A DNA stretch of 64,000 bases, from NCBI GenBank assembly GCA_027488735.1, contig JAIYBB010000008.1:1-64000 (forward strand), in the 5' to 3' direction. Below the pieces are notes generated by a model. It saw nothing but the letters and a program-made list of their open reading frames with translations. It was not told where the DNA came from and did not search any database. This document shows, piece after piece, positions 50,583 through 54,631 of this stretch. The translations under genes were made by a program, and so were the position numbers. This DNA is from Comamonadaceae bacterium (GTDB lineage Bacteria > Pseudomonadota > Gammaproteobacteria > Burkholderiales > Burkholderiaceae_C). Positions within the stretch are counted from its first letter, which is position 1, and each line of letters starts with the position of its first letter.

Positions 50583-51442
50583 GCGCCTGCATAGCGTGCG
50601 TCCAACCAATGGACCAGCTTTTGCAACACCACTTGTTTTTCGGGATCATTGAATATCTCGTGGTACATCACATTGAAGCAATGTGACTGCAAGACATCTG
50701 CAGATGCCCGCTTTGAAAAGTCTGCACTGCCTTGCGGATTGACCAGTTTGTCTTGACCCGCATACAACAACAATGACGGTACTTGCCATTGTTCGGCTTG
50801 TTGCACGGCTTTGATGCCTTCTTGCACGATCCAAGCGGCCAATGACGTAGAAATCAAGGGGTGCACCAAGCGGTCGTGTTTGTAATCACGCACGACTTGT
50901 GCGTCACGGGCCAGTCCATCCAACTTCAAGCCATTGTCCAGACGCAAATGGGGCAACCATTTCGGCAAGGTGGCCAGCAATAATTTTTGCACGGCGTTGG
51001 CAAATGTCGCCAATGCCGGCGAGCTCATGACGACAGCATCGGCCAGCGATCTGTCTGAACAGGCCGCCCGCTGCACCACCAAGCCTCCCATGCTGTGCCC
51101 CAACAGCACCAAAGGCAATCCTGGGTGCAGCGACTTCACATCTTTGACCATGTGTTGCAAATGCGCTGTCAATTGGTCGGGGGTGTCGGTGTCGCCACGC
51201 TTGCCGCTAGACAAGCCATGCCCCACATGGTCATAGCCTATGACGATATAGCCCGCTTGCTGCAAGGTAAACGCCACATGTTGGTAGCGCCCCATGTGTT
51301 CTCCCAAGCCATGCACCAACAAGACCAGCGCTTTGGCTGAACTCGTCGGCACTGGCCAGTCGTAACGGGCCAAAGTGTGGTGGTCTATGTTTGTGTAAGT
51401 GATTTCGTGGTGAAAGCTGTGTTGTGCTGCAATCTTGCTCAT
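50570..51442 (-). CDS. Alpha/beta hydrolase, monoacylglycerol lipase family
   Basis: A 290-residue serine hydrolase with lysophospholipase/monoacylglycerol lipase features: VLLVHGLGEHMGRYQHVAF (oxyanion region), VIGYDHVGHGLSSGKRGDTD, the nucleophile Ser in LLGHSMGGLVVQRAA, an Asp in YAGQDKLVNPQGS and a His in VMYHEIFNDPEKQVV. Cytoplasmic, no signal. It starts four bases inside the end of metW (51439-51442 overlap) and so is the third gene of metX-metW-hydrolase. The role in lipid turnover is inferred. Confidence 0.88.
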   Translation of the reverse strand: MSKIAAQHSFHHEITYTNIDHHTLARYDWPVPTSSAKALVLLVHGLGEHMGRYQHVAFTLQQAGYIVIGYDHVGHGLSSGKRGDTDTPDQLTAHLQHMVKDVKSLHPGLPLVLLGHSMGGLVVQRAACSDRSLADAVVMSSPALATFANAVQKLLLATLPKWLPHLRLDNGLKLDGLARDAQVVRDYKHDRLVHPLISTSLAAWIVQEGIKAVQQAEQWQVPSLLLYAGQDKLVNPQGSADFSKRASADVLQSHCFNVMYHEIFNDPEKQVVLQKLVHWLDARYAGAHSN

Positions 51443-52038
51443 AAGGGTAATTTACTGCCTGACGTGAGTTGGAAAACCGCAGTGGTTGCTCTGAGATTGG
51501 GCCACCATCGTACGGTGTTTTGGTCTTGCAAGCCGAACGCTTGTTGCTTGGTCAATCGCAATTCATCCACCATGGCTTCAAAGTCTGCAAAAGTACCCAC
51601 CCGAATATTGGGCGTGTCATACCACTGATAAGGCAATTTTCGTGTGATTGGCATGCGCCCTAACAACACGCTCCATCGGTTGAACCAATGTGCAAAGTTG
51701 GGAAAAGTGATGATGCCCATGCGCCCCACACGCAAGGTTTCAAGCAGCATGGTTTGCGCATTGCGCAAATGTTGCAAGGTGTCAATTTGCAAGACCACGT
51801 CAAAGCTTTGGTCATCAAACATGCGCAGGCCTTGGTCCAAATTGAGTTGTATGACATTGACCCCGCGCGCCACGCAGGCGACCACATTGGTGTCATCAAT
51901 TTCAACGCCATAGCCTGTACAGCCACGTTGTTCTTGCAAATGGCTGAGCAAGGCGCCGTCACCGCAGCCTAGGTCGAGTACCCGGCTGCCCTGCGGCACC
52001 ATGGCGGCCACGGTTTCAACCATCCAACGGTTGCTCAT
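51439..52038 (-). CDS. metW: Methionine biosynthesis protein MetW
   Basis: A 199-residue methyltransferase-fold protein paired with MetX in proteobacteria. The SAM-type motif [15 protein letters not shown] is intact, and [12 protein letters not shown]-like [20 protein letters not shown] and [18 protein letters not shown] are typical of MetW. GGAGGT lies seven bases before ATG 52038. The start overlaps the metX stop by four bases (ATGA). MetW is thought to activate or assist MetX; the detailed role is from family knowledge. The open frame continues upstream but that part belongs to metX in another frame. Confidence 0.95.
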
Positions 52039-53171
52039 GCCACCTCCACAGATTGGGTTTGAATGCCGGCAAAATAGGAACGCACCAGTTTGAGATAGCG
52101 CCGGTCGTCCATTAAAAAGGCATCGTGGCCGTGCGGCGCGTCTATTTCGGCATAACTGACATCGCGTTGATTGGCTACCAGTGCCTGCACAATTTCTCTG
52201 CTGCGTGCAGGCGCAAATCGCCAATCGGTGGTGAAGCTCACCAATAAAAATTTGGCACATGCCTGCGCCAAGGCTTTCGTCAAATTGCCTTGGTATTGCG
52301 CTGCCGGGTCAAAATAATCCAACGCCCGTGTGATCAATAAATAGGTGTTGGCATCAAAATATTCACTGAATTTATCGCCTTGGTAGCGCAAGTAACTCTC
52401 GATCTGAAACTCAATTTCTTGCGTGCTGTACTTGAACACCTCGCCACTTTGCAAAGCACGTCCAAACTTGGTGTTCATCACATCATCGCTCAAATAGGTA
52501 ATGTGCCCGAGCATGCGCGCGATGCGCAGGCCTCTTTTTGGAACAACACCGTGCGCGTAAAAATGCCCGCCATGAAAATCCGGGTCGGTCGTGATTGCGC
52601 GACGTGCCACTTCATTGAACGCGATGTTTTCTGCATTCAAGTTTGGCGCACTGGCAATGACCACGGCATGTCGCACTCGCTGGGGGTATTGCAAGCTCCA
52701 ACTCAATGCCTGCATGCCGCCCAAGCTGCCGCCCATGACGGCCGCCAATTGCGTGATGCCCATGGCATCCAATAACCGGGCCTGTGCATTCACCCAATCT
52801 TCAACTGTCACAACGGGAAAGTCCGCGCCATACACCTGCTGTGTGTGTGGGTCAGTGTGCATGGGACCGGTAGAACCAAAACACGAGCCCGGGTTGTTGA
52901 CCCCAATCACAAAAAACCGCTCCGTGTCGACCGGCTTGCCCGGGCCGATCATGTTGTCCCACCAGCCGGTGCTTTTGGCTTGCCCTTCGTAATAACCAGC
53001 GACATGGTGCGAGGCATTGAGCGCGTGGCAAATCAAGACCGCGTTGTCGCGGTTCTGATTCAAACGACCGTATGTTTCGTACTGCAACTGATAAGCGCTC
53101 AACACCCCACCACCCTTGAGCAACAAGGGTTTGTCAAAGTGCATGGTTAAAGGTATCGCGGCAAATGTCAT
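52035..53171 (-). CDS. metX: Homoserine O-acyltransferase (acetyl/succinyl)
   Basis: A 378-residue alpha/beta-hydrolase fold acyltransferase making O-acylhomoserine, the first committed step of methionine synthesis. Signatures are [45 protein letters not shown], the catalytic Ser in [37 protein letters not shown] and the Asp-His region with [10 protein letters not shown] and [20 protein letters not shown]. Start 53171 ([20 protein letters not shown]) is family-typical. The preceding leader (53183-53264) can fold into a pseudoknot beside a weak AAGG site, probably a control element. It is the first gene of metX-metW-hydrolase. Confidence 0.96.
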
Positions 53172-53182
53172 ATCTGTGGTGG

Positions 53183-53264
53183 CCTTGCTAAATACGCAGG
53201 CGCTTGGCACGACGTGTTTAGCTGGATTTGTTAAAGCGCCCGCAAGCGGTGGCAAATCGGCGCT
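53183..53264 (-). promoter_or_regulatory. Candidate pseudoknot riboswitch in the metX leader
   Basis: Read on the minus strand, GGCGCTT (53234-53240) pairs with AAGCGCC (53199-53205), and GCTAAA (53217-53222), lying between them, pairs with TTTAGC (53187-53192), lying after them. The interleaved order makes an H-type pseudoknot. AAGG, the best ribosome-site candidate, follows at once (53183-53186), 11 bases before the ATG. An upstream AGCGCC (53259-53264) can compete for GGCGCT, so two exclusive structures are possible. Topology and gene context resemble SAM-II/SAM-V riboswitches, but no match is proven. Confidence 0.55.
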
Positions 53265-53343
53265 GGTACTCAGTATATCCAAGCGTTATGCCTGTTTGTC
53301 TCTGTTTTGTCACACGGTCTTTTCCGATGCTGTTTTTGTGTGC

Positions 53344-53357
53344 GGTGTGGTTTTTGC
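53344..53357 (+). promoter_or_regulatory. Weak sigma-54-like promoter before the second amt gene
   Basis: GG (53344-53345) and GC (53356-53357) are ten bases apart with TTTTTGCTTA at the -12 side, but the -24 side is CGGTGT rather than TGGCAC. Spacing is right and the -12 half good; the -24 half is poor. It is a candidate only. Confidence 0.3.
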
Positions 53358-53428
53358 TTAGATTTGGTGCATTTCGTTTTTCAAGCAATACACGCACCTT
53401 TTTAGAACATTTTTCCCCAGGAGTTCTC

Positions 53429-54631
53429 ATGGACGCACTTAAACAGGGCGCTGATGCTTTGTTCATTCTGCTCGGCGCCATCATGGTTTTGGCCATGCAT
53501 GCCGGATTTGCATTTTTAGAACTTGGCACGGTCCGGCATAAGAACCAGGTCAATGCCTTGGTGAAAATTTTGGCCGATTTCAGCGTATCCACCGTGGTGT
53601 ACTTTTTAGTCGGTTATGGCGTGGCTTATGGCACCGGGTTTTTTATCTCTGCAAGTGTTTTGGCTGAACGCAATGGCTACGACCTTGTCAAGTTTTTCTT
53701 TTTGCTCACCTTTGCGGCCGCTATTCCCGCGATTGTTTCTGGAGGCATTGCAGAACGCGCACGCTTTTATCCTCAACTGCTTGCAACTGCGGTGATCGTT
53801 GGTTTTATTTACCCGTTTTTTGAAGGCATTGCTTGGAACGAGCATTTTGGATTTCAAGCCTGGTTGGTCGAGACTGCTGGCGCCAAATTCCATGATTTCG
53901 CGGGCTCGGTGGTGGTTCACGCGGTCGGCGGATGGATTGCTCTGCCGGCGGTGATATTGTTGGGCGCACGCAGCAATCGTTATTCCAAAGGCGGCGCCAT
54001 ATCAGCGCACCCGCCCTCAAGCATCCCCTTTTTGGCCTTGGGTGCATGGGTGCTGTGTGTGGGCTGGTTTGGTTTCAATGTCATGAGCGCGCAGACCTTG
54101 GACAAGGTCTCAGGACTGGTGGCGGTGAACACTTTGATGGCCATGGTGGGTGGCACATTGGCAGCGCTTTGGGTTGGCAAAAACGACCCTGGCTTTGTTC
54201 ACAATGGGCCGCTGGCTGGACTGGTAGCGGTTTGCGCAGGCTCTGATGTGATGCATCCTTTGGGCGCCTTGGTGGCCGGTGGCATTGCAGGCGCCTTGTT
54301 TGTTGTCATGTTCACTTTGACGCAAAACCGCTGGAAGATTGACGATGTGCTGGGTGTGTGGCCTTTGCATGGCTTATGTGGCACCTGGGGTGGACTGGCA
54401 GCAGGTATCTTTGGGCAGCAGGCCTTGGGTGGCTTGGGCGGCGTGAGTCTGTTGGCACAAGCACTGGGCACTTTGTTGGCCGTGTCCTGGGCGCTGCTTT
54501 CTTCATTGGTTTTATATGGGTTGATCCGGTATTTTGTGGGTTTGCGCTTGAGCCAAGAAGACGAATTCCAAGGCGCTGATTTGAGCATTCATAAAATCAG
54601 TGCAAGCCCAGACAGGGAATCGAGTTGGTGA
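53429..54631 (+). CDS. Second ammonium transporter (Amt family)
   Basis: A 400-residue Amt/Mep channel with about 11 helices and no cleaved leader (MDALKQGADALFILLGAIMV then AMHAGFAFLELGTVRHKN). Pore histidines are in FAGSVVVHAVGGWIALPAV and WPLHGLCGTWGGLAAGIFG. PAIVSGGIAERARFYPQLLA is a typical Amt signature. It differs clearly from the glnK-linked amtB at 31.4 kb, so the two are not a recent duplication. ATG 53429 has AGGAG eight bases upstream; longer in-frame starts exist but lie in the promoter region. No PII gene is adjacent. Confidence 0.93.
   Translation: MDALKQGADALFILLGAIMVLAMHAGFAFLELGTVRHKNQVNALVKILADFSVSTVVYFLVGYGVAYGTGFFISASVLAERNGYDLVKFFFLLTFAAAIPAIVSGGIAERARFYPQLLATAVIVGFIYPFFEGIAWNEHFGFQAWLVETAGAKFHDFAGSVVVHAVGGWIALPAVILLGARSNRYSKGGAISAHPPSSIPFLALGAWVLCVGWFGFNVMSAQTLDKVSGLVAVNTLMAMVGGTLAALWVGKNDPGFVHNGPLAGLVAVCAGSDVMHPLGALVAGGIAGALFVVMFTLTQNRWKIDDVLGVWPLHGLCGTWGGLAAGIFGQQALGGLGGVSLLAQALGTLLAVSWALLSSLVLYGLIRYFVGLRLSQEDEFQGADLSIHKISASPDRESSW

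Follow-up and report, generated by a model that had tools for sequence, protein, structure and literature searches.

A probable SAM-II riboswitch before metXW in a Comamonadaceae genome, most likely an OFF switch, with putative masking of the metX start codon

The leader of the metXW genes in a betaproteobacterium of the family Comamonadaceae very probably holds a SAM-II riboswitch aptamer, located at about 53264-53213 on the minus strand of the window (the whole 64,000-nucleotide stretch analysed, contig JAIYBB010000008.1). Judged from sequence, it is probable that the leader as a whole is a SAM-II riboswitch, most likely (by inference) an OFF switch; as the window lacks a terminator's U-run, the RNA refolded with SAM would here cover the start codon of metX. 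The occurrence of SAM-II in betaproteobacteria is already published; what is new is that the metXZ element of Leyn et al. (2014) is most likely SAM-II, and that the output of SAM-II in the genus of the window seems to have been rewired.

The Rfam model SAM_alpha (RF00521) matches the leader over positions 1-79 of 79 with 35.5 bits (E 2.8e-6), just below the gathering cut-off of 36 bits, which is a database threshold and not a biological feature. It is the sole Rfam match in 52900-53600 at E<=10, and the runner-up for this model elsewhere in the genome scores 17.7 bits; at gathering level, a tRNA and a SAH riboswitch alone were reported in the whole window. A family model built from 66 distinct family leaders, none of them from the window's genus, gives the leader 60.9 bits (E 8e-15; genome runner-up 15.9 bits). 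P1 forms with 6/6 pairs, the conserved pocket nucleotides GAUUUG, UUGC and GCUAAA are present in the full-length Rfam alignment, and all pairs of the P2 pseudoknot core (UUGC with GC.AA) are possible, with UUGCG (53245-53241) facing 53224, 53222-53221 and 53219-53218. Among relatives, GATTTG occurs in 151/151 distinct leaders, though the search pattern permitted variants. The genes downstream, metX and metW, belong to methionine synthesis, and in our reading of the sequence, with an inferred metW start, the metW ATG overlaps the metX stop codon (Table 1). These matches bear out the suggestion of a preliminary description of this DNA that a divergent SAM-II precedes a betaproteobacterial metX. 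SAM-V (RF01826), a class named there as well, resembles SAM-II closely in its pocket and pseudoknot and combines a translational output with a short distal helix (PMC6061858), but it gave no match in 52900-53600 at E<=10.

Table 1. Features of the metXW leader and its genes, in window coordinates.
Feature	Position	Strand	Basis or remark
metX	52035..53171	-	homoserine O-succinyltransferase type; NF047916 649.7 bits, cut-off 560
metW	51439..52038	-	TIGR02081 239.8 bits, cut-off 189.5
metX ATG	53171-53169	-	sequence
-10-like box TATACT	53277-53272	-	sequence; 7 nt before P1
P1 5' strand AGCGCC	53264-53259	-	Rfam alignment; both-side changes in 3/6 P1 pairs, 66 family leaders
GATTTG, third strand of SAM-II pocket	53258-53253	-	Rfam alignment
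CCACCGC between GATTTG and TTGCG		-	sequence
UUGCG (TTGCG), 5' strand of pseudoknot core	53245-53241	-	Rfam alignment; family leaders
P1 3' strand GGCGCT	53240-53235	-	Rfam alignment and leader comparisons; short linker, then GCTAAA
CAGCTAAA region: pseudoknot core 3' strand, ligand pocket and switching strand	53217..53224	-	Rfam alignment, leader comparisons
GCTAAA	53222-53217	-	sequence
GCTAAACACG, putative anti-fold 5' arm	53213..53222	-	own-sequence complementarity downstream; 94.9% of cells paired, 18 genus leaders
CGTATTTAGC, putative anti-fold 3' arm; terminator loop in sister lineages	53187..53196	-	leader comparisons
GTCGTG, proposed start-codon-masking strand	53208..53213	-	covariation in 18 genus leaders; weak in window itself
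TATGAC, metX start codon region, proposed GTCGTG partner	53167..53172	-	
GCAAGGC with AAGG (53186-53183), possible ribosome site	53182..53188	-	folding of window and relatives
AAGCGCC, a' arm of the preliminary description	53199..53205	-	unsupported as switch part

At E<=0.1, RF00521 matches were found in 122/150 family genomes (39/150 above the cut-off), and at E<=0.001 in 88/200 order genomes (36 above the cut-off); the loose level of E<=1 gave matches in 53/61 genus genomes, of which none passed the cut-off and several are false, with L042, L045, L047, L049, L052, L053 and L057 representing one coding stretch, dnaK-like by eye, that was rejected. From 171 loci taken, 157 carry the core with at least 5/6 P1 pairs, and the 14 without a core were dropped. 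A SAM-V-like match, L059, was kept in the genus group for the own-sequence and terminator-overlap tests and left out of the sliding-window, GATTTG and P2 column, distal-pair and -10 counts. By hand count, about 112/150 family genomes have a full-length family-model match of at least 54 bits, the model having been built from leaders of these same genomes; the standard RF00521 cut-off, passed by 39/150, thus misses many SAM-II RNAs of the family.

The preliminary description had drawn a different fold, an H-type pseudoknot in which GGCGCTT (53240-53234, arm a) pairs with AAGCGCC (a') and GCTAAA (b) with TTTAGC (53192-53187, b'), with an extra AGCGCC upstream as a competing arm and AAGG ahead of the ATG. 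All of these strings lie where it had placed them, and the interleaved pairing does exist in the window sequence; such an arrangement, with perfect stems of at least 7 and at least 6, is only mildly unusual on its own, since it is present in 92/3000 dinucleotide shuffles of the 99 bases. As the ligand-binding fold of a new class, this pseudoknot is barely credible: the match to the SAM-II model is strong, the real P1 is AGCGCC:GGCGCT (its 5' arm being the supposed competitor), the pseudoknot core is a different one, and a-a' is not conserved, with 68.9% of cells paired against 68.7% in shuffles of 18 genus leaders. In an own-sequence test, which sets the duplex energy between a strand and the stretch downstream of it in the same leader against the energies obtained with the downstream stretches of other leaders, arm a likewise lacks complementarity to its own sequence (genus p 0.53, family 0.64, order 0.78). 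The b-b' pairing fared better in that it is conserved, but as a likely ligand-free competitor of the aptamer rather than as one of its stems.

Across the 66 family leaders, pairing reaches 98.2% of cells for P1 and 100% for the pseudoknot core; the core is nearly invariant and therefore offers no covariation support, and P2 examined column by column gave weak values only. The two distal pairs are paired in 72.0% of cells of the same leaders. Directly after GCUAAA, in the usual register, the distal P2 helix has 0/3 pairs in the window, as it does in 12/20 genus leaders, and 3/3 pairs in 34/67 family and 23/69 order leaders; a shifted 3-bp helix, CAC:GUG, is possible in the window. The distal helix has 5 bp in 60% of SAM-II RNAs, and yet a short one is not disqualifying, since it has 2 bp in the translational metX member, the RNA that was crystallised (Huang and Lilley, PMC6061858). 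The variable loop gave no own-sequence signal with the first 16 nt past GCTAAA (genus p 0.085, family 0.88, order 0.44).

The missing distal helix could also be a mark of decay, the leader being a functionless SAM-II relic before a constitutive metX, and the patchy distribution in the genus fits such a history: 22/61 genus genomes, the window's own included, match the family model at 55 bits or more, and ten chosen near-complete negative genomes all have a metX (69-80% identical) behind other leaders, in which no such motif was seen. The switch is thus present in some lineages of the genus and absent in others. We nevertheless consider a relic quite improbable, as P1, GAUUUG, the pocket strands and the -10 box are intact and the anti-fold described below is conserved over 18 genus leaders. 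Still less probable is a SAM-II-shaped aptamer that senses another ligand; SAM riboswitch scaffolds can shift specificity, as in the SAM-I variants that sense spermidine (PMC10853860), but nothing specific points that way here, and the pocket (GAUUUG with UUGC and GCUAAA) is unchanged before a gene that is metX.

The own-sequence test points to a downstream partner for the pocket strand. Together with the next 8 nt, GCTAAA favours the stretch downstream in its own leader in the genus (n=21) and the family (n=67), with p 0.0005 each, the lowest value that the test can give, and in the order (n=69, p 0.002); an upstream control strand showed no own-sequence preference (genus 0.87, family 0.79, order 0.26). 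In a sliding 14-nt scan of pooled leaders, from which the first window (-84) was left out as invalid (empty strings), z reaches -9.5 at -4 to +10 of GCTAAA (110 of 156 leaders) and lies at -5.0 to -6.3 at 0, +4 and +8, on or just past GCTAAA, the last of these touching the partner stretch; valid windows upstream of those on the pocket strand stay between -3.6 and +2.4. For the extended b-b' stem, GCTAAACACG:CGTATTTAGC, the share of paired cells is 94.9%, against 92.4% in shuffles (0/500; 18 genus leaders), a test that overstates independence since the leaders are related; both-side changes affect 1/10 of its pairs, a number reached by 353/500 shuffles. GCTAAA:TTTAGC is thus likely to be a ligand-free competitor of the aptamer. 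The loop strand was also tried against the downstream stretch and was left outside the model for the window because its signal appears at order level alone (p 0.0005; genus 0.80, family 0.16).

According to the proposed mechanism, GCUAAACACG would pair with CGUAUUUAGC without SAM and the leader would stay open; with SAM, the pocket would lock GCUAAA in, and the RNA downstream would fold upon itself. This locked state would allow the terminator to form in most relatives, and would mask the metX start codon by pairing GUCRUG with YAUGAC in the window and four near relatives (L033, L035, L038 and L039), the group without the terminator's U-run. In this group ACGUCRUG directly follows GCUAAA and YAUGAC contains the start codon. 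Over 18 genus leaders the start-codon stem is paired in 73.1% of cells against 64.2% in shuffles (0/500), shows both-side changes in 10 cells against 5.0 (0/500) and a covariation of 0.276 against 0.150 (0/500), and prefers its own sequence over permuted ones (p 0.0074, n=18). At 2, the count of pairs with both-side changes does not exceed that in shuffles, one pair within the AUG fails in 12/18 leaders, and L055, which also lacks the U-run, has almost no start-codon stem; here, too, the shuffles overstate independence because the leaders are related. RNAalifold found no common structure for the downstream region over the genus as a whole.

Folding predictions for the four relatives put the AUG at 0.00-0.02 unpaired with the aptamer locked and at 0.09-0.69 with the anti-fold forced. 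The unconstrained fold already masks the AUG in L033, L035 and L038 (0.01-0.08 unpaired; 0.64 in the fourth relative), so that opening it in these three needs the forced anti-fold. For the window the corresponding values are 0.61 locked and 0.83 with the anti-fold forced, and AAG is unchanged; GCAAGGC can pair with GCCTGC (53201-53196), again with no predicted change in accessibility. Because the predicted masking in the window is small, masking is better supported for the group than for the window sequence, and we put start-codon masking as the output in the group without a U-run at about an even chance.

The same SAM-II aptamer might instead act on transcription, through Rho or a weak terminator, or on mRNA stability, with the start-codon stem being incidental. 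Among loci of relatives with a predicted terminator, the best partner of the pocket strand overlaps it in 58/61 for the family, 59/69 for the order and 13/15 for the genus, counts that come without a chance level and from a lax finder, which in L033 and L035 accepts hairpins of -4 to -7 kcal and in L039 a match inside metX; SAM-II RNAs of S. meliloti, moreover, are described as acting on termination, translation and stability (PMC9373788). We regard this alternative as possible but on the unlikely side, given that no U-run terminator hairpin was found in the window leader and that the supposedly incidental stem co-varies in the genus. A tentative proposal, which we hold with somewhat less than even confidence, is that the genus rewired a terminator-type SAM-II: the distal P2 would have been dismantled, its freed 3' strand would pair with the metX start codon, and the old terminator loop (CGUWUUUAGC) would survive as the anti-fold, in competition with SAM for the pocket strand. 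If true, a start-codon-masking SAM-II would exist alongside sister lineages in which the terminator is retained, a testable model of a riboswitch moving from ending transcription to blocking translation.

The arms can act in this way if they are part of the mRNA, and the preliminary description had pointed to a downstream transcription start as a reason why they might not be. The TATACT box ahead of P1 argues for an upstream start, while a consensus scan found no -35/-10 promoter pair before the leader. A -10-like hexamer lies within 30 nt before P1 in 90/156 loci against 0/156 control stretches, and we expect transcription to start at about 53271-53262, a few nucleotides before P1 or at it.

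A -10 box just before P1 is also part of SAM-II as Corbino et al. describe it (RF00521, SAM_alpha, their metA element; PMC1273637), which shares with the window P1, GAUUUG, the pseudoknot core, an alternative downstream pairing and a methionine gene. The window differs in its score, 0.5 bit under the cut-off, in the distal P2 pairs missing from the usual register, in the lack of a terminator and in the proposed start-codon masking. The alignment of Corbino et al. includes Bordetella bronchiseptica, and Barrick and Breaker mention SAM-II terminators in alpha- and betaproteobacteria (PMC2258182). Leyn et al. (PMC4239095) give SAM_alpha in their text for Rhizobiales and Rhodobacterales only, and describe for betaproteobacteria (10/11 Comamonadaceae) a novel metXZ element whose pseudoknot is formed by regions 1-4 and 2-6, with region 5 supplying an alternative stem and a terminator present as well. 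It occurs once per genome and precedes metXW; in Methylophilales, Nitrosospira and Thiobacillus the gene behind it is metZ. Their text treats this element as new, without a ligand and with a terminator, which the window lacks; what it says of the genes (metXW, with metZ instead in Methylophilales and Nitrosospira), of the lineages and of a pseudoknot with an alternative stem agrees with what is described here.

Among the matches listed for a strict SAM-II core pattern, the gene that follows is of metZ type in Novimethylophilus and Nitrosospira and is metX in Variovorax and Herminiimonas; in Rubrivivax and Ramlibacter the open reading frames that follow begin like MetX. The metZ-type fragments (first 260 residues scanned) have O-succinylhomoserine sulfhydrylase as their best family, under the full-length cut-off. 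Because the SAM-II core sits before the same genes in the same lineages, the metXZ element is most likely SAM-II, a conclusion drawn from the pattern of genes and lineages. The orphan metXZ element of betaproteobacteria would most likely gain a ligand in this way. No paper making this link was found in the literature searched, and among the matches listed the name metXZ was found only in PMC4239095. Two betaproteobacterial RNA surveys report a SAH riboswitch (PMC7011215, PMC4603805); mentions of SAM-II and metX were not found in the available text of the former, nor of a SAM riboswitch in that of the latter.

The relatives include several leaders of other design. In 12/12 loci, L348-L359, metX (by eye) is preceded by a SAM-II core with an additional hairpin inserted after the P1 3' strand and before GCTAAA; leaders of this type give partial matches or low scores with the family model. 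Compact SAM-II leaders (L072, L138, L185, L191) have the start codon 9-14 nt past GCTAAA, so close that there is no room for a terminator, and represent a different route to translational control. Besides metX and metZ, the genes behind ordinary SAM-II cores include metK (at L070 by TIGR01034, at L085 by eye) and metH (at L080 as the best family, at L089 by eye). Weak matches to RF02424 (Bp2_287, a candidate Burkholderia sRNA; 22-29 bits, cut-off 70) at L086, L154 and L349 sit on the strand opposite to the SAM-II leaders, and RF02424 may be an antisense reading of a SAM-II leader.

A SAM-II-like variant, GAKUUA .. ACUUGC .. GCUAAAGCGU, lies upstream of genes with a MetK-like start. It was found in the window's own genome, outside the window (L361, G000:C9:107646-107597; 24.6 bits, E 0.0026), and at L343-L346, L365, L367, L369-L372, L375, L377, L379, L381, L383 and L384; a MetK-like start follows in 13/24 loci of L361-L384 and in 4/4 of L343-L346. 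Over 18 aligned copies both-side changes occur in 5/14 pairs, of which 3 belong to the distal pseudoknot helix, and covariation is 0.211 against 0.093 in shuffles (0/500). Rfam searches of 8 such loci gave RF00521 at best 20.9 bits, in 1/8. The metK of betaproteobacteria is without a known regulator in the text of Leyn et al. (PMC4239095), and no report of the variant was found in the literature searched.

The variant also occurs in tandem, shortly downstream of an ordinary SAM-II, at L086, L087, L133, L148, L154, L161, L193, L364, L366 and L378. Several tandems precede a small open reading frame starting MFDC or MYDC; the one scanned, at L087, matched nothing in NCBIfam or Pfam. At L322 (G165:C17:18000-26000) and L321 (G190:C6:26000-36000), SAM-V-like motifs and motifs of the SAM-II-like variant are clustered ahead of small genes. 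The former also encodes a MetK-like protein (PF00438, PF02773), an AAA_5 ATPase, a DUF3293 protein and, by eye, a DNA cytosine methyltransferase; within the latter lies L059, whose SAM-V match scores 40.3 bits (cut-off 41). Finally, the SAH riboswitch of the window (37147-37076, minus strand, 53.2 bits) precedes an open reading frame that is MetH-like by eye, and metH is given by Leyn et al. (PMC4239095) as a SAH-riboswitch target in Comamonadaceae.
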